DNA of 64,000 nt from Methylogaea oryzae (GTDB lineage Bacteria; Pseudomonadota; Gammaproteobacteria; Methylococcales; Methylococcaceae), in assembly GCF_019669985.1 (NCBI RefSeq), contig NZ_AP019782.1, positions 2,474,001 through 2,538,000 on the forward strand, written 5' to 3'. Positions 46,229 to 61,728 of this stretch are shown here, in pieces. The position numbers and the translations under genes are program-made. Below the pieces are notes generated by a model. The model had not been told where the DNA came from, did not search any database, and saw nothing but the letters and a program-made list of their open reading frames with translations. Every line of letters begins with the position of its first letter. The stretch's first letter is position 1.

Positions 46229-46273
46229 TGTCAGTTTTCGAAATTGCCGCGACGTTTTGGAAATAGCTGCGAC
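46229..46273. repeat. Left transposon end with two TnsB-type sites
   Basis: The end begins TGTCAGTT and is followed by GAAATTGCCGCGAC (46240-46253) and GAAATAGCTGCGAC (46260-46273), in the same orientation and 20 bases apart. These match the sites in the right end on the opposite strand. The asymmetry (two left sites, four right) resembles Tn7, which has three and four. Confidence 0.85.
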
Positions 46274-46306
46274 AACTTCGTAACCACCGAATCATATTCA
46301 CCCGCA

Positions 46307-46340
46307 ACGCCATCCTTGCTCGCACAAGGATGGCGTTTTT
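46307..46340 (+). terminator. Terminator just inside the left end
   Basis: A perfect 11-bp stem CGCCATCCTTG/CAAGGATGGCG with a 6-base loop is followed by TTTTT. It would stop comM read-through into the transposon. It lies only 15 bases before the tnsE-like start, so that gene's promoter is either inside the hairpin region or the hairpin acts as an attenuator. Confidence 0.88.
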
Positions 46341-46355
46341 GTTTGTGAGGCAGGC

Positions 46356-48155
46356 ATGGCTGTACCCTTCAACCGCGAACTGAAGCGCGTCAGCAAAGCA
46401 GCGAGGCTCCAAGACCACCTCCCCGAAGGCAACCGCAACTGGATGGCATGGTGGTATTGCGGCATCTATAAAAACCGAGTGGCCGACTCTCAGCCACATG
46501 TCCTTGTAGCGTTCCGTGAATGGTCTTCTGGGGCCTTGTCGGATGAGGTAAGTCATCGGCGCGTACCACTAACAGCGCTTGGTCAGATTCGACTAGGAAC
46601 CATCTGGCGCGAAGGCGTGTGCCACTCGGAAGCCATATACGATACCGCGCGGTTCTCTCTCGACTTTACGCCGGGGGCATGGAGGCTGACATCGTTTGAC
46701 GAAGCGGCCAAACAAGGGCACGCCGCCCCACCATATCCCCACAGCCTTTACCCTTTAAAATACCGCGGCGATAAAAATTGGCTCATTGCATTCGAGCTGC
46801 TCACAGGCGGCACGTTGGTCGTCCCTTGCATCGAGTTTTTCTCCCGGTGCTACGGGCGATCCGAAGAATTGAAACGAATCCTGACAACCTACGAATGGCA
46901 CGGAGAGGACCAAGCCTATACGAGCCGCCTATATGCTCCTCTGGGTGAGTCTGAAGAGCCAGGCAAATGGAAAGTCAAATTGAAAAGGCGGCTCGTCAAT
47001 GGCGATGTCGTCTTTCTTGCCCATGCAAAGTACGACTCCTACACAGAACAAATAGCCAAAGATATTTATGGTCAGCTCGAATCGCAATATGACCCTAACA
47101 ACAAGGCACCTACCTTCATCAGGGTAGCGCCCTGGTTTCAAGGTCCCGCTGAGCTAAAAGTAAATGGTATCTGGTTCAATGACCGGCGATCTTTTCTCGC
47201 CTTACAAGTGCTCGGATGCAGTGATCCCAAAGGAGCACCACTCCAGCGAGATCGAGAGAACACGAACAAGGCAGACCAGCCAGCAAGGGAAGAAGGACTT
47301 GGTGAGGCGTGGGCCGGAGCGCCTGTCCGAAGATCGGTCAAGACACCAGAGATTGTTGATTTAACAGGCGATGAGGAGCCGGATCATGGCGCGGCTATGG
47401 TCGAGATACAAGACCCAGATTTTGAGGTGCTTGGGGAACCCCGCACAGTCATTGACGTCCGAAGAGATCGCGCCAAGGACGCTGCGGGCGCACGAAGTAA
47501 GGGGAGTCATGCAACCTCCTTTTCAAGTGGCGAACCATACGGTTCAGAAAAAGGCGTAGGCTACGCTTCGATCCACGCTCGCCCCGTGATGGACTCAAAT
47601 GGCATATTGCAGGACATGTGGAATGCGATGCAATTCCTGAGTAAGAATCGGCCGGGACTAATCCTGTCCGCTGAGTGGTTTACCTTCGCGGATGGATTCA
47701 ACACGGATGACAAACCAAAGCTAATCCGCCTCCGGCCATTCGATGACAAGACCATAGTAAAAGGCGATATCAGAACGTGGCCATACTTAGATGTAATTAC
47801 CAGGCAGGAGCTAAGAGGCGTCTTGGTCACTCGACTGATGACGTGCGGAAAGGCAGTGTATATCGTCGAAATCCAGCGCCGGGTACGAAAAACGAAGACT
47901 GTAGAAGGAGAAATCAAGGATGATGAGGAGTCTTTCAAAGGGCTGGTCTTCACTCTGAATAAACCGGAAGTGTTTGAAACGTGGCTGATAAGCTTCCTTA
48001 GAGACATTCGTGCGGTCAAGGGAATTGTTCAACGGATTGTGGCTAATTGCCCGGGTAAAGCGGCTGCGTTCAAACATGTCCCAGCGAACAATGAACGAGT
48101 GCCTTGCGAAGCAGCGGTGCTAAATGCTTTGGAAAAGGTGGGGGTTCAGGTATAG
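46356..48155 (+). CDS. TnsE-like target-selection protein
   Basis: This 599-residue protein has no signal or membrane segment. By eye it follows Tn7 TnsE in order. A middle block LLTGGTLVVPCIEFFSRCYG resembles the LARSLFLINSYFCRSCL region. APWFQGPAELKVNGIWFNDRRSFLALQVLG resembles the Q-G-W-x-L-x-V-x-G...D-x-L-V-x-E-I-x-G region. A variable acidic linker follows (about 310-410), then a C-terminal domain (about 425-595) with KAVYIVEIQRR and FKGLVFTLNKPEVFETWLISFLRDIRAVKG. In Tn7, TnsE directs insertion into mobile plasmids through replication intermediates. Here it sits at the opposite end from tnsABC. Homology is inferred from patterns, not a computed alignment. Confidence 0.62.
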   Translation: MAVPFNRELKRVSKAARLQDHLPEGNRNWMAWWYCGIYKNRVADSQPHVLVAFREWSSGALSDEVSHRRVPLTALGQIRLGTIWREGVCHSEAIYDTARFSLDFTPGAWRLTSFDEAAKQGHAAPPYPHSLYPLKYRGDKNWLIAFELLTGGTLVVPCIEFFSRCYGRSEELKRILTTYEWHGEDQAYTSRLYAPLGESEEPGKWKVKLKRRLVNGDVVFLAHAKYDSYTEQIAKDIYGQLESQYDPNNKAPTFIRVAPWFQGPAELKVNGIWFNDRRSFLALQVLGCSDPKGAPLQRDRENTNKADQPAREEGLGEAWAGAPVRRSVKTPEIVDLTGDEEPDHGAAMVEIQDPDFEVLGEPRTVIDVRRDRAKDAAGARSKGSHATSFSSGEPYGSEKGVGYASIHARPVMDSNGILQDMWNAMQFLSKNRPGLILSAEWFTFADGFNTDDKPKLIRLRPFDDKTIVKGDIRTWPYLDVITRQELRGVLVTRLMTCGKAVYIVEIQRRVRKTKTVEGEIKDDEESFKGLVFTLNKPEVFETWLISFLRDIRAVKGIVQRIVANCPGKAAAFKHVPANNERVPCEAAVLNALEKVGVQV

Positions 48156-48214
48156 CCAGAATTAACTACCCCAACAGTTCCAAGGACAAGAAAAGAATTG
48201 ATATCGAGTTATAA

Positions 48215-48673
48215 ATGACGCCAAAAATGCTGAACCCGCATATACGAGGTCCTATTAATGCATATCCCGTCATCCTGGAACGCGGCGAACGAGAAGTGTT
48301 GGTGGATTTCGTAGACATTCCTTGGGCGCACACGATCGGAGACGACGAGGAGAGCGCTCTGCTCAACGCCGTGGACTGCTTAGAAACCGCGTTTGAGGCG
48401 TTGATAGACCGTCGCGAACCGATACCCGAACCGTCCGCGCCAAAACGCGGACAGCGCGTCGTCATCGTGCCGGTGGTTGTTGCCGCCAAGGCGGCGCTCC
48501 ACAACGCCATGCTGGCGGCGGGTGTCCGCAAGGCTGATCTGACCAAGCGCTTGAACATCGCCCCAACACTGGCTGACAGGCTGTTGTCAATGCGCCATCA
48601 AACCCGCATCGAACAGATTGAAAACGCCCTAGCGGCGTTGGGCCAAAAGCTGGTGGTGGACGTGACGCAGTAG
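48215..48673 (+). CDS. HicB-like antitoxin, orphan
   Basis: The 152-residue product has an N-terminal HicB-type partial RNase-H fold (YPVILERGEREVLVDFVDIPWAHTIGDDEESALLNAVDCLETAFEALI) and a C-terminal helix-turn-helix (VRKADLTKRLNIAPTLADRLLSMRHQTRIEQIENALAALG). HicB normally neutralises the RNase HicA encoded next to it. No HicA-sized gene is present on either side; only 59 bases separate it from the tnsE-like gene. A short upstream open stretch ending at 48213 could be a remnant. It may be a stand-alone regulator. Confidence 0.75.
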   Translation: MTPKMLNPHIRGPINAYPVILERGEREVLVDFVDIPWAHTIGDDEESALLNAVDCLETAFEALIDRREPIPEPSAPKRGQRVVIVPVVVAAKAALHNAMLAAGVRKADLTKRLNIAPTLADRLLSMRHQTRIEQIENALAALGQKLVVDVTQ

Positions 48674-48730
48674 CTTACGGCCGACCTCAGCACCAGAAAT
48701 TCCCACGCAACTAGAAAGGAACGACACAAC

Positions 48731-49432
48731 ATGAAACACCACTTCCTCCTAATTACACTGCTTGGGCAACTGTTGCTACCTATAGCCACCGCAGGCACTC
48801 TACTCGAAGGTCGCGTGGTCAGCGTGCATGATGGAGACACTCTCACCGTTCTTACGCCCGAGCATCGCCAAATCAAAATTCGTTTGGCCCAAATCGATGC
48901 CCCAGAAACCAGCCAAGATTTCGGACAGAGATCCAAGCAATCACTGTCCGACCTAGCCTATGGCAAAAACGTCCGCATTGACGCCGAAGCAACCGACAAA
49001 TACGGACGCACTGTGGGCAAAGTGCTAGTCGATGGCCTCGATGCCAATCTGGAGCAAGTAAAGCTAGGTATGGCCTGGGTCTATCGGCAATATGCAAAGG
49101 ATTCCGCCTACTTCACCGCAGAGGACGCCGCCAAGAGCTCGAAGGCGGGCCTGTGGTCGCAACCGAATCCTATCCCGCCCTGGGAGTACCGGCATGGCAG
49201 CCAGAAAGGCAATGCTGTGGTTATCGAGCCGCATACCAAGACCGAAAACGTACGTAGTTCGGTTAATAGCCCACTAGACCCAACCGCCGACAGCGTTCAA
49301 TGCGGAATCAAACGCCTCTGCAAGGAAATGTCTTCTTGTGCCGAAGCCAAGTTTTATATGAACCAGTGTGGCCTATCTCGGTTGGATAGGGATGGGGACG
49401 GAGTGCCATGTGAGGCCTTATGTCCGAACTAA
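48731..49432 (+). CDS. Secreted thermonuclease-like protein with Excalibur domain
   Basis: This 233-residue protein has a signal peptide (about 1-22) and a staphylococcal-nuclease domain (about 25-135; VVSVHDGDTLTV, IRLAQIDAPE, DKYGRTVGKVLVDG, GMAWVYRQYAKD). It ends in an Excalibur calcium-binding motif (DRDGDGVPCE). It probably degrades extracellular or periplasmic DNA. Such genes are common on plasmids and integrative elements. It lies 58 bases after the hicB-like gene with its own ribosome site (AAAGGA). Confidence 0.85.
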   Translation: MKHHFLLITLLGQLLLPIATAGTLLEGRVVSVHDGDTLTVLTPEHRQIKIRLAQIDAPETSQDFGQRSKQSLSDLAYGKNVRIDAEATDKYGRTVGKVLVDGLDANLEQVKLGMAWVYRQYAKDSAYFTAEDAAKSSKAGLWSQPNPIPPWEYRHGSQKGNAVVIEPHTKTENVRSSVNSPLDPTADSVQCGIKRLCKEMSSCAEAKFYMNQCGLSRLDRDGDGVPCEALCPN

Positions 49433-49503
49433 AGGAAACGATCTGCCAGGGGAGCCATGAGATATCGTAAGGCCCGGAAACACGCAATATTTTGGAAATA
49501 GGA

Positions 49504-51651
49504 ATGAATCAGGAACCACTCAAACTGCCGTTTCGTCCACGGGCTAGGTTGCTACAGCTACTTGGAGATCAGCTGATAGGATCGCCTCGACTTGCAATAT
49601 TCGAGTTGGTAAAGAACGCTTACGACGCCGACGCGGAAACGGTGACCGTGACGCTGAAGCACCTCACTACACCAAGCCCGACTATCGTTGTAGAAGATGA
49701 CGGCGAAGGGATGACACTGGAGACGATCCGCGACATCTGGCTGGTGCCTGCTCATGATCATCGGGCCGTTCAGCGTAAGGAGTCCCAACGGACACGACGC
49801 AATCGACTACCGCTCGGTGAGAAGGGGCTTGGCCGTTTCGCAGTTCATAAGCTGGGTGACAAAATCCAACTGGTCACACGCGCAAAGGACAGCTTGGAAT
49901 GCGTTGTCGACATCGACTGGGATGTTCTTATCGAAAAACCATTCCTGTCTGAAGCCGACGTCACCGTACGAACCCGGACGCCCCAGGTATTCATTGGCAC
50001 AAGGACTGGCACGATGCTCACGATCAGCCGACTCAGAGAGAGTAACTGGACGCGAGGAGAAGTGCGCAGACTACTTCGGCAGATCACATCAATTTCATCG
50101 CCATTCGAAGACCGGTCTGATCGATTCAGAACTTTGTTGATAGTCCCTGAGCGTCCCGAGTGGGTCGCCGGTGTTCCCGATGTCGAGGTGTTACTTGACC
50201 GCGCGCCGTGGCGTTTCTCCTTCATCCTAGAAGATGGGCAGCTGGATTGGTCCTATGAATTCAGGGGGGTCACAGGAATCAAACTTGCACCCAGAAGTGC
50301 GGAAATGACAGCGACTTCATTGCTGATTGCCTCGCGTCGCGATGTTGATATCTATGATGATGACCAGGGCGCCAAATCGAAAAAGCCGAAGAAAGTTACT
50401 GCCGACGCAAACCATGCGGAAGGTATTGGACCGATTAGGGGAACATTCTTTGCCTTTGATCGAGACCGGGAGGTTCTCGCGAAACTTGGAGACACCCAGT
50501 TGGTCCAAAACTTCCTTGACGAAAACGGTGGCGTTCGGGTCTATCGTGACGGCATTCGCGTGTACAACTACGGAGAGCCAGGCGATGACTGGCTGGGTCT
50601 TGATCTTCGTCGGGTCAATACTCCGGGCCGCAATCTCAGCAGAAACATCATCATAGGCGCGATTGACCTATCTCTCGCCCATAGTCAAAAGCTTCAGGAA
50701 AAAACCAATCGTGAGGGCTTTGTCGAGAACGACGCATATGCTCGACTTCAGGAACTGGTGCTTGGTGCGCTGTCTATCTTTGAAGTTGAACGCAAGATCG
50801 ACAAAGACAACATCCGTACACTGACTGAGAAGGGCAACGATCCGGAAATCCGAAACATCAGCCAGCCGCTAATGGCGCTGCGCAACGCGGCAAAAAAACA
50901 CAACCTATCCGCGGAACTTGACCCGCTGATCGACAAGGCTGAGAAAAACTACAACGAAATGCGTGACACTATGTTACGTGCCGGTTTGTCCGGTATGGGC
51001 CTAGCCGTCGTTTTCCATGAAATTCAACAGGGTGTGAGACTGCTTTTCGACGCCATCGAATCCGGCGGCAAGCCAGAAACGATACAGGTGCAAGCACGCG
51101 AACTGGTACGAATGCTCGACGGCTTCACCGAACTGCTACGCAAGGGAGACAGGAAGCTTCACAGCCTCAAACACCTCATCCGACGTGTAAGGGACCTCAA
51201 CAAGATTCGGTTCAGAGCCCATAACGTCAAGCTTATCTGTCCAGCCCTCGAGGACAACACCCCGGACATCGAACGAGAATTCTCGTTCGGCCTCATGCTG
51301 GGAGCCTTGAATAATCTTCTCGACAACGCCTTCTATTGGCTCCAAGTGCGCTGGCCGGAAAGCGAAGGCACCGCGCCACGCCAGATCTATATCAATATCG
51401 AACAAGAGCTAGCAGAGGGGCCGGCCATCGTAGTCGCCGACAACGGTCCTGGGTTGGTGGATGACCCAGAACGTCTTACTCGCCCGTTTTTCAGCCGTCG
51501 TCCAGATGGCATGGGGATCGGGCTTTACTACACAAACATGGTGATGGAGCTGAATGGTGGGCGCCTGGGGTTTCCTGACGCCGAGGAAGCTAATGCCCCA
51601 AAAAACCTCGATGGCGCAGTACTCGCATTGATTTTCGGTAAAGGAAGGTAA
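49504..51651 (+). CDS. Protein with two GHKL ATPase domains, putative defence component
   Basis: The product is 715 residues from the ATG at 49504; a TTG at 49492 is in frame. The first GHKL domain is MutL/Hsp90/MORC-like: N-box ELVKNAYDADA, DDGEGM, and the lid GEKGLGRFAVHKLG. A middle region follows, then a second, histidine-kinase-like part: a DHp-like helix with VVFHEIQQGVRLLFDAI (His near 504), N-box LNNLLDNAFYW, VADNGPGL and GMGIGLYYTNMVM. Two complete ATP sites in one soluble chain are unusual. It is followed after 3 bases by a receiver-like gene, then vsr. It may be an ATP-driven sensor in a restriction-type system; that role is inferred from context. Confidence 0.82.
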   Translation: MNQEPLKLPFRPRARLLQLLGDQLIGSPRLAIFELVKNAYDADAETVTVTLKHLTTPSPTIVVEDDGEGMTLETIRDIWLVPAHDHRAVQRKESQRTRRNRLPLGEKGLGRFAVHKLGDKIQLVTRAKDSLECVVDIDWDVLIEKPFLSEADVTVRTRTPQVFIGTRTGTMLTISRLRESNWTRGEVRRLLRQITSISSPFEDRSDRFRTLLIVPERPEWVAGVPDVEVLLDRAPWRFSFILEDGQLDWSYEFRGVTGIKLAPRSAEMTATSLLIASRRDVDIYDDDQGAKSKKPKKVTADANHAEGIGPIRGTFFAFDRDREVLAKLGDTQLVQNFLDENGGVRVYRDGIRVYNYGEPGDDWLGLDLRRVNTPGRNLSRNIIIGAIDLSLAHSQKLQEKTNREGFVENDAYARLQELVLGALSIFEVERKIDKDNIRTLTEKGNDPEIRNISQPLMALRNAAKKHNLSAELDPLIDKAEKNYNEMRDTMLRAGLSGMGLAVVFHEIQQGVRLLFDAIESGGKPETIQVQARELVRMLDGFTELLRKGDRKLHSLKHLIRRVRDLNKIRFRAHNVKLICPALEDNTPDIEREFSFGLMLGALNNLLDNAFYWLQVRWPESEGTAPRQIYINIEQELAEGPAIVVADNGPGLVDDPERLTRPFFSRRPDGMGIGLYYTNMVMELNGGRLGFPDAEEANAPKNLDGAVLALIFGKGR

Positions 51652-51654
51652 GCG

Positions 51655-52980
51655 GTGATTTTTTCTGCACCACGTTTCGTTGTTGTTGATGACAAAGAGC
51701 AGCATCTACTCGCCATCACACAGGCATTTCAGCAACTAGGCTCTCCTTGCCTGGGCATTCATTACGACCCAGCTGAAGACTTGAATAGGGATCACTTCCG
51801 TAGCGTCCGATGCCTGTTTTTTGACCTACATTTAATGGATGGCTTGGCTGGCACAGATCATCGTCGGCATTATGCGTTGATCGCCTCGATACTAGAAGAA
51901 AATATCAGCCCGCGAGGAGGTCCTTTCATCCTTGTCGTTTGGACAGAACACGCGCATCTCAAAAATGAGCTACAGGAGTACCTAGAGGCAAATCTCGACC
52001 CAACCAAACTGTATACCAGACCTTTGGCCGTACTTAGCTTAGCAAAAGAGGAGTTCATCCATACGGACACCGGTACCGTTAAAGATTCAATCGATATCCG
52101 CAATGCCATTAGGCACACAGTGCTGTCAAATGCCCAGCTCGCAGTTTTGCTAGGATGGGAATCCGACGTACAGGGAGCAGCGGGTGACACTATGGCCTCC
52201 CTGCTGAACTTGATACCTATTACCCAGAGAACAAGCGCTTCATTTTCCGGTGCACTAGATAAGATATTAAGCCGACTTGCACGTGAGGCTGTTGGCCCCA
52301 AAAACGTTGAATTAGACCATCGCGCCGCAATTAACAACGCCCTTGCGCCTATTCTGATTGATCGAATCATGAATCAGCGTGTTGAAGAACACCCCAACGA
52401 ACTGTGGAAAAAGGCAGTTACACTTTACGAAGATGAAAGTTCCGCCGATGCTGACGAGGCTGGCCCTATCAATTGGATGCTGCACTTGGCGACACCAGAT
52501 TCAGAAAAAATACGGCCAACCGATTGGGGAGCGGTTGTTGCTTGGCCGTTCGGTTGGACAGATAATGTGCTGTCACGGTGGACAGGACTGACCATTCAAG
52601 AGATGCTATGTGACGAATTCAAACTCAAGACCGACGCAAAGTATAATCCCGTTCTCGTCAGAATTGGAGCGGCCTGTGACTATGCTCAGAACAAGAAAGG
52701 GCCAATTACATACTTATTCGCTCTTGAAGTTCTGGAAGAATATAAGCAGAAGAATAAAACGCCAGATTCTATTTGGAAATCACCTACTTTTGTTAACCCC
52801 ACATCATCGCAGGTCTTTCGCCTTAACGTGCATGTTCGTTTTCCAATAACCTGCATTCGGAAATCTCATTGCCGATGGACGAGTCGTTACCGCCTCCGAG
52901 AGCAATTGCTGATGAATCTTATTACCTCGGCAAGCAATTATATGTCCCGACCAGGCATAGTCCAGTTACCGGTCAGATGA
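51655..52980 (+). CDS. Receiver-like protein with large unknown C-terminal domain
   Basis: The 441-residue product has a GTG start with GGAAGG eight bases upstream. Residues 8-120 resemble a receiver: VVVDDK (Asp12-13), FFDLHLMDG (Asp57) and VVWTE (Thr97), while the usual Lys-Pro reads Arg-Pro (YTRPL). The remaining 320 residues match no family I recognise. It is coupled to the double-GHKL gene and could be its phospho-acceptor. The last 45 residues are Cys- and Arg-rich and unlike the rest. A better-looking continuation exists in another frame (about 52845-53003), so a frameshift is possible. Confidence 0.7.
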   Translation: MIFSAPRFVVVDDKEQHLLAITQAFQQLGSPCLGIHYDPAEDLNRDHFRSVRCLFFDLHLMDGLAGTDHRRHYALIASILEENISPRGGPFILVVWTEHAHLKNELQEYLEANLDPTKLYTRPLAVLSLAKEEFIHTDTGTVKDSIDIRNAIRHTVLSNAQLAVLLGWESDVQGAAGDTMASLLNLIPITQRTSASFSGALDKILSRLAREAVGPKNVELDHRAAINNALAPILIDRIMNQRVEEHPNELWKKAVTLYEDESSADADEAGPINWMLHLATPDSEKIRPTDWGAVVAWPFGWTDNVLSRWTGLTIQEMLCDEFKLKTDAKYNPVLVRIGAACDYAQNKKGPITYLFALEVLEEYKQKNKTPDSIWKSPTFVNPTSSQVFRLNVHVRFPITCIRKSHCRWTSRYRLREQLLMNLITSASNYMSRPGIVQLPVR

Positions 52981-52990
52981 TTGCGAATCT

Positions 52991-53404
52991 TTGGACGTCC
53001 TGACGCCCGAACAACGTTCTGTCCTGATGTCACGAATTCGGGGCAAAGACACAAAGCCCGAGCTTGTGGTCAGGCGCCTTGCGCACGCGCTTGGCTTCCG
53101 CTATAGGCTGCACCGTCGAGACTTACCTGGTAGCCCTGATCTGGTGTTTCCCCGCCTCAGAAAAGTGATTCTGGTGCATGGCTGCTTCTGGCATCGCCAT
53201 CCTGGATGTCGATTTGCTTACTCGCCAAAGTCGAACACCGCGTTCTGGGAGGCGAAATTCGCCGCGAATGTCAAGCGCGATCACCTTACCCAGAAGAGTC
53301 TTGAGGAGCAAGGATGGGATTGCTTGATCATCTGGGAGTGTGAAATCAAAGATATTGTGGAACTTTCCAGGCGCCTGCAAAGATTCCTCGCTGGACAAGA
53401 TTGA
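52991..53404 (+). CDS. vsr: Vsr, very short patch mismatch endonuclease
   Basis: Vsr nicks T:G mismatches formed by deamination of 5-methylcytosine and is usually encoded near a C5 methyltransferase. The 137-residue product has MSRIRGKDTKPELVVRR, the catalytic Asp in LPGSPDLVF, the zinc/His segment VHGCFWHRHPGC, NVKRD and the C-terminal LIIWECE. The TTG start at 52991 is chosen for family length. It begins 10 bases after the receiver-like gene. The methyltransferase at 54427-55407 is its probable partner. Confidence 0.92.
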   Translation: MDVLTPEQRSVLMSRIRGKDTKPELVVRRLAHALGFRYRLHRRDLPGSPDLVFPRLRKVILVHGCFWHRHPGCRFAYSPKSNTAFWEAKFAANVKRDHLTQKSLEEQGWDCLIIWECEIKDIVELSRRLQRFLAGQD

Positions 53405-53486
53405 ACACACCAGGACACGTTTAAAATTGGCTCACATAACACGGCACGCCTGCCTCGGCTAAACTTTGATATTAGGTCTCATCAAT

Positions 53487-54332
53487 ATGCAGCACCTACT
53501 CCATACATCCCTACTCGTGTATGCGCAAATCCGCGACGAACTGAGGCATGTGCTAGACGCCTCTCGCTCAATCGACGAGCGCTACAGCAAATTCGCTGCT
53601 ACCCAACTGCACTACTATTCGGAGCGTTGCCAGTCGCTAAATGTCTTGCTTCAGCAGGGGAAGCTTTGGGATTGCGACATCATCATGCGCGCTGCACTCG
53701 AATGTGCAACGCGCTTCATCTTTGTCAGCATAGCCACTTCAGACGAGAGATATCGTCGAATCGAGGAATACACCATAGAACTAAACGAGATTGAGGACCT
53801 GCTGCGGTCGGAGAAGGCCAAAGCTGCTATCGCGTCATCCACAGATGCCGACACCATCATGCTAGTAGGAGGCGTCATTTTGACTCCTGAGAGGGAAGCA
53901 GAACTTCGCGCGCGATGGCCAAAAGCCAAACGCGCTGCACTAAAGCAAAAGTGGTCGTTCTCCGAAATTGTCCGAGAGCTCACAAACTTCCAGGCCGGAC
54001 AACTAGACCTCCGTAAGTACAAGAGCTTCCTACACGGCTATGGAATCAGTAGTCACCTGATCCACGCAGACCAGACCGCAATGAATTTGGTCTGGGATCG
54101 TGTTCGTCGCGAACCGAATGAGCGCAATACACTTGAGCGCGCCCATTTCGCGCGTCTATCCACCGATCCAGTGTCAGTCTTATTCCTATGTTGGCGTGCG
54201 ATGGTCTTCGCGACAGGCGTCGACTGCAGGAACTCGGAAATTGTTTGCAATCTCCTCCACTTGCATGAAGAAGCGAATGTATTTCACCGCGCCTTCGCGG
54301 AATCACAAGCGCACGTCTATCAACACGGCTAA
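53487..54332 (+). CDS. DUF5677-like helical protein
   Basis: The product is 281 residues from the ATG at 53487; a TTG at 53466 is in frame. It is all-helical, with the pattern of DUF5677: an arginine-containing core helix (CDIIMRAALECATRFIFVS), a middle acidic helix, and HGYGISSHLIHADQTAMNLVWDR, where the SxxxHxD-type residues resemble a buried active or binding site. Biochemical function is unknown. It lies between vsr and dcm within the defence-like cargo, and is convergent with dcm. Confidence 0.6.
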   Translation: MQHLLHTSLLVYAQIRDELRHVLDASRSIDERYSKFAATQLHYYSERCQSLNVLLQQGKLWDCDIIMRAALECATRFIFVSIATSDERYRRIEEYTIELNEIEDLLRSEKAKAAIASSTDADTIMLVGGVILTPEREAELRARWPKAKRAALKQKWSFSEIVRELTNFQAGQLDLRKYKSFLHGYGISSHLIHADQTAMNLVWDRVRREPNERNTLERAHFARLSTDPVSVLFLCWRAMVFATGVDCRNSEIVCNLLHLHEEANVFHRAFAESQAHVYQHG

Positions 54333-54426
54333 CCCCGGCCTCTCGGCAAGGTCGACTGTCAGATCTAGTCTGAACTCCTACACATCATGTGTAACCGGTC
54401 TCGCGGCATATCCGCACCGGAACCAA

Positions 54427-55407
54427 TCATGTTGCCGGGATACCAATATTTTTATTGAAATTGATCCATTGAAATATCGCAGTCATCACATCAGAGCAAA
54501 CGCCATTCCCACAGAGTTTCACCTTCTCGCGCCGACTCCCATATGGGAGCTTGTGCTCATTACCCCCCCCCATGGCTCTCAGCAGCTCACTGGGTTGCAA
54601 CATGCGAAGATAGGGCTCATTGCCATTCCAGGTGACCAAACCGAAACGGTCAATGGTCGTTACCGTACGCAGGGGAACATCGAGTGTTTGCCACCCACCG
54701 CCATAGTCGGAACCGTAATAGACAATGATGAACGGCACACCTCGTCCGAGATGGGCAATTGCGCGTTCTGCACGTTCAATCGTTGCTTTGGCACGCCCGG
54801 GGCTATATAGCTTTGTAGAGCGATAGGAACTCCCCCAGTCTATGGTATCCCTTGCGCACATACGAGTCCCATCCGAAAAAGCCAGAAGTTGCCCTTTCGT
54901 GACAACGGTCCCCTCCCGATCGCAAATCAGGAACATCCGTTTCCGTGCTTGAGCAGAGCCGAAATCGGCTGAGTTCAAGTGCAGATCACTGACTTGGTAA
55001 CCAAGATTTTCGATCGTCTCGACAAGCTCGTTATGCCGATCCCATTTTTTCATTCTGTTCACGTTCTCGACGATCAACCAGCGAGGCTCCATGGCCTCAA
55101 CCCACGGCACTATGCCAATAGCTGTTTCCCGACTGCGCTCAGACCCTGGCTTTGCACCTCTGGCTATTGAATGCGACGTACACTCCGGTGATGTTAGAAG
55201 TACGTCTGGCCTGTAGGTTTGACCTAGACCTTTGATATCCACGTTTTCTATGTAATCGGTCACAACCTCCGCGCAAGGGAAATTGGCCTTGTACGTCTTT
55301 GTCGCCATGTGCCACGCGTCCAGTCCAACCAAAGGACGCCCTCCACCTCGAACGGCCCCCCTGGCACCGAAACCACCGCCACAGAATAAATCAACAAAAG
55401 TTGCCAT
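54427..55407 (-). CDS. DNA C5-cytosine methyltransferase (Dcm family)
   Basis: This 326-residue enzyme methylates cytosine in DNA. It has motif I (FVDLFCGGGFGARG), motif IV with catalytic Cys (TSPECTSHS, where the usual PPC reads PEC), motif VI (VENVNRM), motif VIII (AQARKRMFLI), and motifs IX-X at the C-terminus (LTVxxx-type RTVTTIDR, LCGNGVC). The recognition sequence cannot be read. It is convergent with the DUF5677 gene and paired by function with vsr. Its own 173-bp upstream region separates it from tnsF. Confidence 0.93.
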   Translation of the reverse strand: MATFVDLFCGGGFGARGAVRGGGRPLVGLDAWHMATKTYKANFPCAEVVTDYIENVDIKGLGQTYRPDVLLTSPECTSHSIARGAKPGSERSRETAIGIVPWVEAMEPRWLIVENVNRMKKWDRHNELVETIENLGYQVSDLHLNSADFGSAQARKRMFLICDREGTVVTKGQLLAFSDGTRMCARDTIDWGSSYRSTKLYSPGRAKATIERAERAIAHLGRGVPFIIVYYGSDYGGGWQTLDVPLRTVTTIDRFGLVTWNGNEPYLRMLQPSELLRAMGGGNEHKLPYGSRREKVKLCGNGVCSDVMTAIFQWINFNKNIGIPAT

Positions 55408-55580
55408 CGTTCCTTCGCTCTACCAAGCCCAGTTACTATGACGCCAGGTTACCAGGTCTATGTTGAATTGCAAGCATCCAACAACGCCGGAAGCCCCATC
55501 GATGTGCCGCAACCACGCGGTGGCCAGTATCAACGAGGCATACCAGGCCACTACACACCTTGCATCGCTGCCGCATTACG

Positions 55581-57029
55581 CTACACATCTGGCGCCACCC
55601 TCGGAATCCAATATTGTCTTCCATCCAACCGCACAATGAGCCCGTCATCCGGACTCGCGATGATATCGCCACCAATCACCCTAAGCCCGACCTTCTTCGG
55701 TAGTCCATGGAAATACGCCAGCGCCACCGACACCCATCGTCGAATGAACGCTTCGCCTTCACCAGGCTCCCGCATCAGTAACAACATTTCCGCTTCAAGC
55801 GCCTTCTTCCGATTTGACTTCACCTTGATCTCGTTGACCTTTGGCAACGCGATGTCGGAACCATGCACATTCCTCAGATACCGAACAAAGCCGGAAACCG
55901 CAGCTCGCTGGCCCGGAGTGTTTTCCAGATAAGCATCGAGCACCAGCTGATCCGGAGGTGTCCGCTCCATCTCTTTGCCCTTGAGGAGCAAGGCTGCTGC
56001 GGGGGTCAAGGCGAGCCTGATGGAACGCAGGGTCGTTTTCTCATCCTCCAGCTCTGACATCAAAACCTTGTGATAACCATTCAAAATGGCCCATGCCTGC
56101 GAACCATGACCAACCTTATCCAAAGTTGCCGAAATCCTTCGTCTGTTGGAGTCTTCCTCCCTTGCAACAGCGTCCGTGACCACCAGGTCACTTGCCTGCA
56201 TCCATCTCACAGGCAGCAGCACGCGGCGTAGGCGCTGCGCACCAAAGTGGCCCAGCAACGCGGTATAGTCCGGGATGGTTTTCCAGCGTTGTTCGATATC
56301 CAGGAAGAACGGCAAATAGCGATTCACTGTAATCGCTGCCTTATTTTCTCCGACCTCTTCCGCAAGCCATTTCCCAAAACCTCGGAAATAATCGGCCATT
56401 TGCGGCACTGCGAACGTTGCGCAGTCCACCGCCACTCGCTTATCCAACAATCCACGCCAATAGCACGGTTCGCATTGATTGCCGCGACCGGCTGGCATAG
56501 CTTGACCACATACAGGGCATGCGATGTCACCCTTTTCTCGACATGCCTTGCAGAGCATGTGTCCATCCGGCGCCGGCTCAAGGAGCCGATGTCGACGACA
56601 TGCCTCGCAAGTGCGGTAATCCGCCCTGGCGCACTTCGGACATAGTCGCTTGTCATGCCCTAGGCGAAGAACCCTGGCCAATCGTTTGGAAAGCGTTCCG
56701 CAAACTTCACAGGGTTCTGCCTCACCGAAATACGGTGCGCAGACGTTGCACACAGGGCCGTAGGGAGTGATTTTCCCGACCTCGTACTTTCCTTTGCCGC
56801 ATCGGGCGCATGGCTTGGCGACTTGGCACGACCGACAGACCGCCGCAGGATCGTCCTTCGGCAACCTAGCGAAATTGCCGCATTTCGGGCAGATACGCCG
56901 CTTGAATACGCGGGCGTAGCACGTACCGCAATACCTGTGTTCCTTGTAGACCCGCCATATCCTGGCTACGGTCTTGCCACATTCATCGCACCTATGCTCA
57001 ACAAAGGATGGTGGAGCGAATTCAATCAT
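55581..57029 (-). CDS. tnsF: TnsF-like comM target selector (zinc ribbons plus inactive tyrosine recombinase domain)
   Basis: The 482-residue product has an N-terminal array of at least eight CxxC pairs (residues 14-190), i.e. several tandem zinc ribbons, then a helical region (about 200-310) and a C-terminal part (about 340-475). The C-terminal part is the size of a tyrosine-recombinase catalytic domain but has no R-H-R-Y set near the end (it finishes WIPRVAPDV). TnsF with an inactivated recombinase fold directs Tn6022-like transposons to comM, the gene hit here. Its ATG overlaps the tniQ stop (ATGA), so it belongs to the transposition operon. The assignment rests on context plus domain pattern. 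Confidence 0.8.
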   Translation of the reverse strand: MIEFAPPSFVEHRCDECGKTVARIWRVYKEHRYCGTCYARVFKRRICPKCGNFARLPKDDPAAVCRSCQVAKPCARCGKGKYEVGKITPYGPVCNVCAPYFGEAEPCEVCGTLSKRLARVLRLGHDKRLCPKCARADYRTCEACRRHRLLEPAPDGHMLCKACREKGDIACPVCGQAMPAGRGNQCEPCYWRGLLDKRVAVDCATFAVPQMADYFRGFGKWLAEEVGENKAAITVNRYLPFFLDIEQRWKTIPDYTALLGHFGAQRLRRVLLPVRWMQASDLVVTDAVAREEDSNRRRISATLDKVGHGSQAWAILNGYHKVLMSELEDEKTTLRSIRLALTPAAALLLKGKEMERTPPDQLVLDAYLENTPGQRAAVSGFVRYLRNVHGSDIALPKVNEIKVKSNRKKALEAEMLLLMREPGEGEAFIRRWVSVALAYFHGLPKKVGLRVIGGDIIASPDDGLIVRLDGRQYWIPRVAPDV

Positions 57030-58156
57030 CGCCGCACCATCTCCAGCTTGCGGCGCAATTTAGCCATCATTCGCATGACCTGGTCGCGTGAACGTGGAAC
57101 ACCTGTTTCTTGTCTTGGCTTTCTGTTGCGGGTAACAGGACGATCCGGCAGGGAGTCGACGAGGGAGGAAAGCACGCTTGGCAGTGGTTCCCTTCGATTG
57201 CAAAAGCCCTGCCGAGTAACCCCCACCTCCTTCAGAGCCGTCGCTAGGCTATCCCCACCCGCATCCATCAAACGCCATAGACATCCCAGCAGCTTTTCGC
57301 GGTCATGGACAAGCAGCCGCTCGACTCCCGCCCCCGCCATCACGGGCAAACCGTCTGGTAATGGGGCACCAAGGCGATTCAAGACACCGCGCATCGCTTC
57401 CGTTCCGTATCGATTTTGGCGCCGACACAGGGAAATGAAGAAATCCGCCAGCCCAAACCATTCGGCGGTAGTGAGCGTTTGCCCGTGAAACACCCCATGC
57501 CCTTGGAGAGAAATGGCATCCGCCAAGCGCTGTAGAGCCAGCGCATCCGGCGATTGAGGAACCGGGCTGCCTTCGCCCAGGCCGGCCTTACACGTCGCGC
57601 ATACAGCGACATGCCGGTCTTCCGCCAAGAGCCGATGGGGCTCCACTGGCGCACCGCAGGCACGACAACGATCCAGCAGCAAACAACCATGTTTCTGGCA
57701 ACCGGTATGCCATGCAAGCCGCCATTGAAGCCGATAGTAAGGCTTGGCGTCTTCAGCAAGACACGACGGACAATATTGCAGGCCGCCGTGCCGCTTGGTG
57801 TTACGCGCCCCGAGCGCCAAAATCCATGGCCATGTGGCTTTCTTGGGCGGCAGTCCACCCCAAATCCTGCTGGCAATCGGCTGGAGGGTAGCCGCCTCGA
57901 ACGCTGCGACGGAAATACCGGACAAGAGGGAAAGCAGCGTCACCCGCTCACTTGAGATCGTGCGGTCGGCATCAAGCGTCCAAATCCGCCATTTCGGCCA
58001 GATCTCCCCCGTAAACGTCAAAGGATCGCAGCCCTGGGCCAGAGCGGCCCTTACCAGCCACGAGGACACGATCTCATCGGGAAGCAACTGAACCGGAACG
58101 GCCCAGCGAGGATTTACGCCATCACTTCCCGGATGCCACGTGTAGGCCGCAGCCAT
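57026..58156 (-). CDS. tniQ: TniQ/TnsD-family target-site protein
   Basis: TniQ proteins bridge target DNA or a selector to TnsC. The 376-residue product from MAAAYTWHPGSDG has the N-terminal TniQ signature (VQLLPDEIVSSWLVRAALAQG) and the zinc finger CPSCLAED...HTGCQKHGCLLLDRCRACG. A helical C-terminal region ends in a basic tail. The frame is open to an ATG at 58222. The later ATG has a GAGAG ribosome site, and both starts overlap the tnsC 3' end. It is shorter than Tn7 TnsD (508), consistent with needing TnsF for specificity. Confidence 0.88.
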   Translation of the reverse strand: MAAAYTWHPGSDGVNPRWAVPVQLLPDEIVSSWLVRAALAQGCDPLTFTGEIWPKWRIWTLDADRTISSERVTLLSLLSGISVAAFEAATLQPIASRIWGGLPPKKATWPWILALGARNTKRHGGLQYCPSCLAEDAKPYYRLQWRLAWHTGCQKHGCLLLDRCRACGAPVEPHRLLAEDRHVAVCATCKAGLGEGSPVPQSPDALALQRLADAISLQGHGVFHGQTLTTAEWFGLADFFISLCRRQNRYGTEAMRGVLNRLGAPLPDGLPVMAGAGVERLLVHDREKLLGCLWRLMDAGGDSLATALKEVGVTRQGFCNRREPLPSVLSSLVDSLPDRPVTRNRKPRQETGVPRSRDQVMRMMAKLRRKLEMVRR

Positions 58157-59004
58157 GCCTTGCTCTCTATGGTCGTTTTGTCGATCTGCTCCCTGCCCGT
58201 CTTGATTGCGTCGTTTGCGCACTCAACAATAAGCCGATGCAGGTTGCCTATGTTGCCCTCGGAAATTGTATGCAAAAGACTGGCGAGCTCCGGTTGATGC
58301 AATTTTGAAGGTTGCTTCAAGGGCAACACCTTCTCGAAACCGGCCAACAGGCGCTGGAAGTCCTGGTTCGGTTCCCACAAGGGCAGGCTCATTACCTCAA
58401 ACCGGCTGGCGTGCTGGGGATCGGTATGGAGAACCCGAACGGCCTCTCGCGTACCGACGCCGACGATGGGAATGACCAGCTCGTTGCACAGGAGCTTGAT
58501 AGCGTTCATTACCTCCCGCTGCTTGATGGGCGAACCGGTCAGGAGCGAATGGAACTCATCGATGATGAGCATGCTCACATGGCAAGCCCGAAAAAGATGG
58601 ATGACCTGATACCGCAGCTTGGATGCAGGATCGGTCGCACGATAAGGCGCATAGAACCGCTCAAGGATGGAGATGTACAACCCCTTTTCGTCGGCGCTAG
58701 GTGGAGCCTCCGCCAGGATGATCGGCTTCACCGGTTCGGCGTCCTCGTTGACGTAACCTTGCCCGCACAGATCGCGGAAACGCCGAACGATGGTCGTTTT
58801 GCCATTATTGGGATCGCCAACGATCAGAAGATTGGGCATGCGCGGACGCTCGGGCTTGTGCAAGAGGCCCTGCAGGGTGTCCATGATCTGCTTAGCGGAG
58901 TGATAGCCAATCCAGCGGGGCTGATCCATGAACTGTAGGCGTTCCTTGTCGGACAACGACATGATGTGCCGAAAATCCGGATGGATATGCTCGTAACCGC
59001 TCAT
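58114..59004 (-). CDS. tnsC: TnsC/TniB-type AAA+ transposition regulator
   Basis: TnsC is the ATPase that polymerises on target DNA and links selectors to the TnsAB transposase. The 296-residue protein has Walker A (VGDPNNGKTTIVRRF), Walker B (MLIIDEFHSLL), sensor region PIVGVGTREA and the winged C-terminal helices. It overlaps tnsB by 4 bases and tniQ downstream. Its length is like TniB rather than the longer Tn7 TnsC (555). Confidence 0.93.
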   Translation of the reverse strand: MSGYEHIHPDFRHIMSLSDKERLQFMDQPRWIGYHSAKQIMDTLQGLLHKPERPRMPNLLIVGDPNNGKTTIVRRFRDLCGQGYVNEDAEPVKPIILAEAPPSADEKGLYISILERFYAPYRATDPASKLRYQVIHLFRACHVSMLIIDEFHSLLTGSPIKQREVMNAIKLLCNELVIPIVGVGTREAVRVLHTDPQHASRFEVMSLPLWEPNQDFQRLLAGFEKVLPLKQPSKLHQPELASLLHTISEGNIGNLHRLIVECANDAIKTGREQIDKTTIESKAWLRPTRGIREVMA

Positions 59005-60929
59005 GCAATGTCTCCGAAGGCGTCGATGTCCCCCTCAACAAGACCAGTAACCGGCGCAAGCAAAGGTGCGCTGGGTTTCAGTGGCTCGGCCGGCATGGGT
59101 GCTGCCGGCGATACCTTCTTCTCATGCTCCGTACGCCGCTGCGCCTGACGGCGGGCCTTCTTGGTCTTCTCCTTCGCCTCATCCACGCGACTACGCAACT
59201 CCGTGATGGCATGGAGAATCTGGTGTTCGTTGACGCTCTTTTTGCCTTCTCGCTTGAGCGTCTCACGCGCCTGTTGATATTCCCAAATGCTCATCGACGG
59301 CAGAGATTGATCGGCGAACGGCACTTTGAAGTATTGCTGCAATGCGGGATCGAAGAACCAGACCGCGCTGATGTCCCTTGGATCGCGGCGGAATATGAAC
59401 TCGCGCTTCTTGTCCCGCGCATCCGGGTCTTCCGCATTGATCCATGGACGCAAGGCTTCGGCGTAATAGCTCATGCCGTCGATGGTCACGCCGAACGTCT
59501 GCACGGTGCGCCGGAATGCGGGCAGGAAATCCAAAAGTACAGTTAGGCGATTGGCAGGGCGCGGCGGAATACCGGTGCCCTGTACTTCAGCATTTCCGAA
59601 GATCCCGATCTCCCACTTCTTGAGCGGCGACATGCCGATACCGGAATGCAAGCGCTGGTGATAGACCTTGCAAATGAGCGTCACCAGCCATGTCTCGAAC
59701 TCCGATTTGGTCATGGCGGCGTGTTTCTCCGGGTTGTACTCGTCCTTTTCCCTGATCGAAGAGAAGGTCGTTCCCGGCAAATCGTGAATTTCCTTGAGCA
59801 GCGTGCCCAGCACACGTTCGATATGGCCACCATAGCGTGGCTGCTTGACCGGCCTGAACTCAAGGTTGATGCCGTACATCAGGCATGATTGCTGGAAGTT
59901 GTTGGAACGGAAGTCGGCACCGTTATCGACATGAATGGTCTTGGGAAAGCCCCATACCGGCCATTGGGCATCGACCTTGTGCAACAGAAGCCATTCGTCC
60001 TTTGGCAAAACCGAATGGGTTACGCACATCGCCACCGACGTCTCGGAAGGTGGATCGAAGGAGAGGTAGTAGCCCGTCACCATGCGGCTGTAAACGTCCA
60101 TGGACAGCGTAATCCACGGACGGCCGATGGGCCGCCGGTACACATCGTCCACCAGGATGATGTCGGCGGGAGTGTGGTCTATCTGCACCACCGCCAACGG
60201 ATAGTCGGCGTTGGGGAAACTTCCGGCGGCTGGAAGGAACTTGTTCTTGGCCTTCTCTTTAAAGCCGCGTCCCCTCAGTCGCTGTTTCTCCGTCACCCTG
60301 TTCAGTCGCGACCGGATCGTAGCCGCACTCGGCGCCTCGATACCCCGTTGTTCACATCGGCGAAACACCTCCATGACGGCTTTCTGAGCCGTGGGACGTT
60401 GTGGCGTCAGATAGAAGTCGCGAATGACTTCCTCGATGACTTCCTCGGCAAATACTGGAATGCGGCTCTTGCCTGTTTTCCAGCCGCGCCTTTGGGGAAT
60501 CAACGCCGAAACGGCGCCGTATGCCTTGTAGCGCTTGAGCCAGCGGTAGAGAGTGGCGGCATCAACCCCCACCTCCTTGGAGCGGGCTTCGACTTGATGA
60601 CGGCCTAGATAGAGTTCGTTGGCCAACGGTTTGATAGCTGCAAAACGTTGTTCTGCAACCTTCCAGTCCTCATCGGCAATCGTCGATATGTCTGCCGCCA
60701 ATGGCTTGGCGCCCTTGGCATCGACAGGGCGTAGGTCGCCGATGCGCAACGGAACACTTCGGCCGCTCTCAACGCCAACGGCAACGACCGATTCGAAATC
60801 CAGGACCTGCGCGATGCGATAGACCGTATCCCCGCTTCGAACGAAGTTGCCCACTTGAACATCGACCCGCTGGCGAACCGGTTCAAAGGCGTCATTTGGA
60901 AGCTCGAAATCGTTGCCGTCTTCACTCAT
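59001..60929 (-). CDS. tnsB: TnsB, DDE transposase
   Basis: TnsB binds the repeated end sites and joins the 3' ends to the target. The 642-residue protein has N-terminal helix-turn-helix domains (about 75-240; VDAATLYRWLKRYKAYGAVSAL, AATIRSRLNRVTE) and an rve DDE core. The catalytic residues are Asp in QIDHTPADIILVD, Asp in HVDNGADFR and Glu in YGGHIERVLGTL. A Mu-type C-terminal domain and a basic tail, probably contacting TnsC, follow. It overlaps tnsA by 8 bases and tnsC by 4. Confidence 0.96.
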   Translation of the reverse strand: MSEDGNDFELPNDAFEPVRQRVDVQVGNFVRSGDTVYRIAQVLDFESVVAVGVESGRSVPLRIGDLRPVDAKGAKPLAADISTIADEDWKVAEQRFAAIKPLANELYLGRHQVEARSKEVGVDAATLYRWLKRYKAYGAVSALIPQRRGWKTGKSRIPVFAEEVIEEVIRDFYLTPQRPTAQKAVMEVFRRCEQRGIEAPSAATIRSRLNRVTEKQRLRGRGFKEKAKNKFLPAAGSFPNADYPLAVVQIDHTPADIILVDDVYRRPIGRPWITLSMDVYSRMVTGYYLSFDPPSETSVAMCVTHSVLPKDEWLLLHKVDAQWPVWGFPKTIHVDNGADFRSNNFQQSCLMYGINLEFRPVKQPRYGGHIERVLGTLLKEIHDLPGTTFSSIREKDEYNPEKHAAMTKSEFETWLVTLICKVYHQRLHSGIGMSPLKKWEIGIFGNAEVQGTGIPPRPANRLTVLLDFLPAFRRTVQTFGVTIDGMSYYAEALRPWINAEDPDARDKKREFIFRRDPRDISAVWFFDPALQQYFKVPFADQSLPSMSIWEYQQARETLKREGKKSVNEHQILHAITELRSRVDEAKEKTKKARRQAQRRTEHEKKVSPAAPMPAEPLKPSAPLLAPVTGLVEGDIDAFGDIA

Positions 60930-61577
60930 CGGTCGGCACCCATAGCTCGATGAAGTCGTTCAGCGGACGGGAGATGTCGCAATCAAGCTGACGGGACGCC
61001 AGCAGGTGCCAGATGTGGGCAATGCCCTCGGCCCGATATAGGCCCATGAAATGCCGAGCCAGGAGGTAATGGAACGGCGCAGACCCCATTTGCCGCAGGT
61101 TCTCGATAACCCAGCGGCTTTCCTCAACCGGAAATTGCATCTGCTTGTAACGCTCCAGAAACCGAATGTTCTCCAGAGCTTGGCCACGGATACGGGACTC
61201 ATCATAGACGTGGAACTCCCACCCCTGTTCCTGAGCATGACGCCATGCCGCCTTCCATTTCGGCATCCATTCGCGCCAATGCTTGCGCCATTCCTTCCGC
61301 GGCTTGACCTCGACCAGAACCGGCTTTGGGTAGTCACCGTATTCGCAGTTGCCTAGCCGGTAGTACACAAGAAAATCCGGCGTGTAGGTATAGGTCTGTC
61401 CGTTCTTGCCGGCAAACGGTATCTGGCACGGTTGAGGAATCACATCGAGGACAGCAAGGCAGAACTCCTTGCAAATGAGGAAGTCGCGCTCCAGCGTGGA
61501 TTCATGCTCGATGGGGTCTCACCCCGAAATGCATACACTCCCGACACGCTCCGGCGCGTCGGGCGTATCTTCCGCAT
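60922..61577 (-). pseudogene. tnsA: tnsA, endonuclease, with single-base frameshift
   Basis: TnsA cuts the 5' ends so that the element moves by cut-and-paste. An ATG at 61577 opens MRKIRPTRRSVSGVYAFRGETP in one frame. The sequence IEHESTLERDFLICKEFCLAVLDVIPQP continues in the next frame, with no start codon of its own before a GTG at 61443. The frames join at a run of four C (minus strand; 61513-61516); a fifth C would restore a 218-residue protein. The N-terminal part carries the conserved LERD Glu. The later part has catalytic YTPDFLV and VEVKPR. Starting at GTG 61443 would lose the first catalytic residue. This is a true mutation, a programmed shift or a sequencing error. Confidence 0.85.
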
Positions 61578-61595
61578 CTGGCGAGGTGCGATGGA

Positions 61596-61728
61596 GTCGC
61601 AGCTATTTCCGTTCATTCCGTACCCCGTCGCAACTATTCCATGAAAAACGTCGCAGCTATTTCAAGAAACAATAGCGTAAGCTATTGTTTCTTGAATCGC
61701 ATTGTCGCATTTATTTCTGCAACTGACA
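61596..61728. repeat. Right transposon end with four TnsB-type sites
   Basis: Reverse-complement copies of the 14-bp site occur at 61596-61609 (GTCGCAGCTATTTC), 61627-61640 (GTCGCAACTATTCC), 61650-61663 (GTCGCAGCTATTTC) and 61704-61717 (GTCGCATTTATTTC). The end itself reads AACTGACA (61721-61728), the reverse complement of the left TGTCAGTT. The outermost site is set apart from the third by a palindrome. Confidence 0.88.
61661..61696. repeat. Perfect 16-bp-arm palindrome inside the right end
   Basis: TTCAAGAAACAATAGC, a GTAA loop, and GCTATTGTTTCTTGAA form a perfect hairpin between the third and fourth TnsB-type sites. It could be an insulator-type terminator (it lacks a strong T-run), a protein site, or a feature of end synapsis. 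It also lies in the likely tnsA promoter region. Confidence 0.85.

Follow-up and report, generated by a model that had tools for sequence, protein, structure and literature searches.

The stretch of DNA that we analysed (the window, 64,000 nucleotides) contains a Tn7-like element inserted in comM, and within that element lies a cassette in which genes for a kinase-like protein (HK), a receiver protein (RR), a Vsr-type endonuclease and a DUF5677 protein are followed, on the opposite strand, by a gene for a C5-cytosine DNA methyltransferase. The ORF list and Pfam searches placed these five ORFs, and assigned their domains, as an earlier note on the same DNA had done. The features are as follows.

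46229 to 61728, no strand assigned: Tn7-like element in comM, with the cassette as cargo, recognised by Pfam matches of its tns genes, by repeats and by the comM join
49504 to 51651, plus strand: HK, 715 amino acids; N-terminal GHKL and S5 domains, a coiled coil and DHp segment with His505, and a C-terminal HATPase_c kinase core
51655 to 52980, plus strand: RR, 441 amino acids, GTG start; receiver (residues 1–135), helical linker (~136–284) and C-terminal β-barrel (~285–441)
52991 to 53404, plus strand: Vsr-type very short patch endonuclease, 137 amino acids, TTG start (Vsr 4.3e-30; TIGR00632 135.5 bits, above the cut-off)
53466 to 54332, plus strand: DUF5677 protein, 288 amino acids (DUF5677 1.6e-06), probably a passenger
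54427 to 55407, minus strand: C5-cytosine DNA methyltransferase of a DrmMII-like subfamily, 326 amino acids (DNA_methylase 2.2e-30; DrmMII 230.7 bits)
55581 to 57029, minus strand: zinc-ribbon protein of the Tn7-like element
57026 to 58222, minus strand: TniQ of the element
58114 to 59004, minus strand: TnsC/TniB of the element
59001 to 60929, minus strand: TnsB (rve) of the element
60922 to 61443, minus strand: TnsA of the element

That the cassette is Tn7-like cargo, as the earlier note had proposed, was borne out by the genes for TnsA, TnsB/rve, TniB/TnsC and TniQ, by TnsB-type repeats and by the split comM. The tns genes run leftward, starting at 61443; TnsB-type repeats (GTCGCAGCTATTTC) lie close to the right end of the element, and the left end carries their inverted copy. 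When the flanks of the interrupted comM are joined (46223|61729), its reading frame stays open across the junction (...AALVGGGGVPKPGEISLAHGG), and the five bases flanking the two ends of the element, GCGGT and GCGGC, form a near-perfect target duplication. Besides Vsr, no restriction enzyme was recognised in the element by the ORF list, Pfam or PADLOC. Its cargo also includes an ORF of 599 amino acids (46356–48155) that had no Pfam, PADLOC, NCBIfam or PHROGs match and, just upstream of the cassette, both a HicB-like antitoxin ORF with no obvious toxin partner (48215–48673) and a homologue of secreted-type staphylococcal nucleases with an Excalibur domain (48731–49432). Two Acinetobacter Tn7-like elements (loci L017 and L018), which occupy the identical chromosomal place, carry a methyltransferase, HK and RR as cargo.

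The HK and RR genes are separated by 3 nt and the RR and vsr genes by 10 nt. HK matched both HATPase_c_3 (7.7e-21) and HATPase_c (3.6e-15), and in structure comparison its two ATPase regions matched different groups of proteins. The N-terminal half (residues 1–440) has the fold of MORC3, Hsp90 and MutL-like proteins, with residues 7–434 aligning to MORC3 at Z 23.6 over 307 residues; MutL matched at Z 19.6. GHKL and S5 domains in this arrangement, with the ATP motifs preserved, are those of a MORC/paraMORC-type ATPase. Residues 493–715 have the fold of histidine kinase cores (LvrB, ZraS, ThkA and a FixL chimera), with the LvrB core matching residues 505–715 at Z 19.9. Across 70 homologues, both GHKL domains retain their ATP-binding residues without exception; His505, which lies within a VFHE sequence of the putative phospho-helix, is likewise invariant, and an EKTNREG motif is conserved. 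Structural modelling thus identifies HK as a probable soluble histidine kinase, predicted to have no transmembrane part.

RR had no Pfam family, PADLOC model or PHROGs family. Its AF2 model (pLDDT 93.7) consists of an N-terminal receiver, a helical linker and a small β-barrel. What the earlier note had called a receiver-like partner is a genuine receiver, both by the fold of residues 1–135 (Z ~10) and by its phospho-site, in which D12 and D57 are invariant, D13 is conserved at 94%, K131 at 99%, and residue 97 is Thr or Ser in 65 of 72 sequences. Together, HK and RR therefore have the residues that define a two-component pair: a phospho-acceptor His, and a receiver Asp with its acidic pair, Thr/Ser and Lys. 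The invariance of His505 and Asp57 lends good sequence-based support to the ATP- or phosphate-driven switching that the note had envisaged.

The same note had suggested that the C-terminal part of RR might be a nuclease, and here the prediction pointed elsewhere: residues 120–441 were modelled as the helical linker and small β-barrel, with no nuclease fold. PDB searches returned receivers only, matching the N-terminal part, and the absence of a barrel match in such searches proves nothing. Neither HK nor RR showed a recognisable nuclease fold, and no nuclease or toxin activity was identified for the barrel. G292, C341, D342 and R432 of the barrel are invariant, and R413 is also listed as a feature. 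The best non-receiver fold lead, a weak one, was to PemK/MazF-type toxins (Foldseek against BFVD with the whole RR model: prob 1.00, E 4e-3, TMt 0.63); it serves here as a lead only, since profile comparison gave no support for homology to these toxins (hhalign 0.2%) and the MazF catalytic residues were not evidently retained. Some RRs depart from the common form: those of L009 and L010 have a charged segment of ~35–40 residues inserted in a barrel loop, and that of L019 has a partly duplicated barrel.

We used an alignment of HK to retrieve 80 genome loci and 13 viral-contig loci, which spread across Proteobacteria, Bacteroidota, Chlorobi, Actinobacteria, Spirochaetes, Chloroflexi and other groups, and counted gene contexts in the 63 loci having 5 kb on each side. 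RR adjoined HK in 61 of these 63 loci, and a C5-methyltransferase lay within 5 kb of the pair in 57, being absent from 6. Methyltransferase density per kb was 0.192 within 2.5 kb of HK–RR and then 0.009, 0.006 and 0 moving outward, a ~20-fold enrichment of the nearest interval over those farther out. The association of these genes exceeds chance, and the core consists of the C5-methyltransferase, HK and RR, with Vsr (near the pair in 33/63 loci, absent from 30/63) as a frequent companion. With almost half of the loci lacking it, Vsr, the other nuclease candidate of the earlier note, is improbable as an obligatory nuclease of the system. A DUF5677 gene was found in 2 of ~100 loci, the window and L018, both of them Tn7-like elements; given this rarity it does not belong to the conserved set, was rejected as a system component and is probably a passenger. 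Of the five-gene set originally proposed, the methyltransferase, HK and RR thus stand as the core with Vsr as companion, and DUF5677 drops out. The survey agreed with the view of a mobile set linked to methyltransferase and Vsr genes across phyla, and homologues in housekeeping contexts lacking a methyltransferase, which the note had named as contrary to its proposal, were not encountered.

Restriction enzymes were an optional neighbour: roughly one locus in four has one nearby, and those seen represent at least four unrelated kinds (MvaI/BcnI, AspBHI-Mrr, a type II enzyme and a DUF6998-like protein). A paraMORC-seeded search drifted onto HK itself and was left out of the counts. Two loci, L038 (3397–5499) and L049, encode a second GHKL protein upstream of HK–RR on the opposite strand.

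The linkage was also apparent in the reverse direction. With the window methyltransferase as the sole query against 273 other genomes of the same class, we found four relatives, of which three (67–69% identity) sit in cassettes of methyltransferase, Vsr, RR and HK. The HKs of these three cassettes are only distantly related to that of the window (profile E 1e-106 to 1e-111), and their RRs combine a plain receiver with the C-terminal CD...R signature seen in the window RR. The fourth relative (43% identity) lies with a Vsr gene beside drmB and drmA of DISARM (L155, 7997–16953); a methyltransferase–Vsr pair thus appears common to DISARM and the kinase–receiver systems. In one locus (L154) the islet consists of exactly methyltransferase, Vsr, RR and HK, flanked by a histidine-kinase gene and a laccase-type gene. 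Still smaller sets of methyltransferase, HK and RR occur without a restriction enzyme at L113, where they adjoin glmS, and at L017, where they stand alone after the tns genes; the same trio is present in loci of the published PF19192 type (L111, L113, L114, L115 and L116). HK–RR systems form three deep branches, of which one alone has Pfam models, and the three therefore share one common core of C5-methyltransferase, HK and RR.

Two parts of the cassette are exchanged between otherwise similar systems. The methyltransferases of HK–RR loci fall into about five clusters with little mutual similarity (that of the window, in which SPEC replaces the usual PPC at the catalytic cysteine, belongs to a cluster of 33 loci), and HKs that are 75–83% identical stand beside methyltransferases of unrelated clusters. 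Between the window and L008, for example, identity is 75% for HK, 58% for RR and 69% for Vsr, versus 6% for the methyltransferase. Because unrelated methyltransferases swap beside similar HK–RR pairs, the pair cannot depend on one target sequence; the feature common to the partner methyltransferases is 5-methylcytosine.

The second exchanged part is the RR barrel, whose alleles are 42–48% identical within systems of 81–91% identical kinases (L002 and L008–L012); in L011 and L012 the HKs are 91% identical and the barrels 42%. By barrel type L008 groups with L011, whereas L002, L009 and L010 group with L012, and barrel type is independent of methyltransferase type. In topology tests, in which likelihood gaps exceeded 100 units and the p values are descriptive because the pairs were named after the identities had been seen, the HK data rejected a clade of L008 and L011 (p 4e-6), and the barrel data rejected both L011 with L012 (AU p 7e-94) and L008 with L002 (AU p 3e-45). 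These sequence comparisons indicate that the barrel has been exchanged between near-identical systems, and as the part under exchange it is likely to be the effector or target-facing domain.

By analogy with known systems, we propose, at a probability of roughly one half, that the mobile core of C5-methyltransferase, MORC-type HK and receiver–barrel RR, here accompanied by Vsr, is a methylation-gated defence against foreign DNA. The GHKL–S5 module of HK would work in the manner of MORC and MutL, clamping DNA in an ATP-driven step, and the 5-methylcytosine of the partner methyltransferase would keep it off host DNA in any sequence context. Where DNA lacks this mark, the kinase core would autophosphorylate His505 and pass the phosphate to Asp57 of RR, which would release the C-terminal barrel; this fast-changing, exchangeable domain might act on, or escape from, something supplied by the invader. 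Vsr would mend the T:G mismatches arising from 5-methylcytosine, and HK–RR would take the place of a DISARM-like ATPase arm, signalling by phosphate. More tentatively, the three deep branches may constitute a distinct form of methylation-linked immunity, in which a sequence-nonspecific MORC clamp repressed by 5-methylcytosine feeds a His–Asp phosphorelay and an exchangeable barrel effector, replacing the restriction enzyme or DISARM core. If true, a kinase and its response regulator, not a nuclease, would couple DNA methylation to immunity in bacteria, and two-component signalling, MORC ATPases (eukaryotic silencing factors) and restriction biology would be joined.

A more conventional explanation, proposed in 2021 (PMC8011034), is that HK–RR is a cytoplasmic two-component system controlling expression of the methyltransferase, Vsr or restriction enzyme next to it. 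Its canonical His–Asp architecture and the several unrelated restriction enzyme families near some loci favour this published view, and the presence of a recognisable restriction enzyme at a quarter of loci or more fits an accessory or regulatory role and counts against a defence core. We nevertheless consider it doubtful: the output region of RR matches no known DNA-binding domain, minimal cassettes offer the methyltransferase as the sole possible target, and barrel alleles swap independently of methyltransferase type, which would be unexpected for a dedicated operon regulator.

The pair might instead combine with Vsr into a sequence-specific restriction enzyme, the counterpart of the methyltransferase in a type II-like system, and the existence of cassettes with no other nuclease would suit this arrangement, as would the resemblance of the HK GHKL domain to BbrUII/HgiDII enzymes (84 bits, below the cut-off) and to PADLOC REase_II models. 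Such an enzyme is improbable, however, given that HK and RR persist where an unrelated methyltransferase has replaced the first (as between the window and L008), that Vsr is so often missing and that neither protein has a recognised nuclease fold. Least probable of all would be a 5-methylcytosine-maintenance module with no defence role, in which the MutL-like domain of HK aids Vsr repair and the pair reports the state of that repair. The MutL-type domain with Vsr next door recalls E. coli, in which MutL supports Vsr according to work cited in a passage of PMC2292703, but the methyltransferase is absent from far fewer loci (6/63) than Vsr (30/63), an invariant phospho-site and receiver would be needless for repair, and the surroundings are mobile and rich in restriction–modification (R-M) genes.

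The system is not undescribed, as the earlier note had supposed, because Bellieny-Rabelo 2021 (PMC8011034) had already published HEF_HK/Response_reg_2 two-component-like pairs beside R-M genes, linking them to C5-methyltransferases and Vsr, noting a paraMORC relationship and suggesting R-M regulation, with function not tested; our literature search found no functional study of an HK–RR pair. Like those pairs (PF19191 and PF19192), the window has a kinase built of HATPase_c_3, a His-bearing DHp and HATPase_c, predicted to lack a transmembrane part, an adjacent receiver with an uncharacterised C-terminal part, and C5-methyltransferase, Vsr and R-M neighbours. Membership of the two families was nonetheless ruled out: HK and RR had no Pfam match to PF19191 or PF19192 at E ≤ 1, whereas the positive control L113 matched both, and PF19192 was absent from the whole genome. 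The window proteins are also shorter (HK ~715 versus ~990 amino acids; RR ~440 versus 542–595). A profile of the window HK matched the HKs neighbouring PF19192-type proteins at 1e-70 to 1e-77, and the receiver of the window RR aligned with that of Response_reg_2 (hhalign 94%, E 1e-7), so that the window pair appears from these profiles to be a separate branch homologous to the published one. As far as the literature searched shows, what is new here is the minimal cassette, the search that started from the methyltransferase, the connection with DISARM and the exchange of barrels, and a compact cassette of three or four genes makes the 2021 prediction testable.

The paraMORC/MORC-linked R-M systems of Iyer et al. 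2008 (PMC2292703) likewise join a GHKL–S5 ATPase to C5-methyltransferase and Vsr genes; they include helicases and restriction-fold nucleases, and no kinase core or receiver was described in them. The BbrUII/HgiDII restriction enzymes (NF050001) share a related N-terminal GHKL domain with residues 23–203 of HK, yet the match falls far below their cut-off of 550 bits and the remainder of HK is unrelated and carries the kinase core. A type II R-M system has a cognate restriction endonuclease; none besides Vsr was recognised in the Tn7-like element, and HK–RR is not matched to methyltransferase type. Detocs also uses a two-component signalling pair in phage defence, with a sensor and effector that differ from those of the window system, and we know of no methyltransferase linked to it.

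DISARM offers a closer parallel. Its ATPase is stimulated by unmethylated DNA and lowered by 5-methylcytosine with no reading of sequence (PMC9142583). A DrmA helicase and DrmB beside the methyltransferase were found at L155 only, and the scanned window genes include no DrmA, DrmB or DrmC. What the window shares with DISARM is the DrmMII-like methyltransferase subfamily, the methyltransferase–Vsr pair (L155) and, by the logic that we infer for HK–RR, a sequence-independent ATPase arm working with a C5-methyltransferase; unlike that of DISARM, the arm in the window is a kinase–receiver pair.
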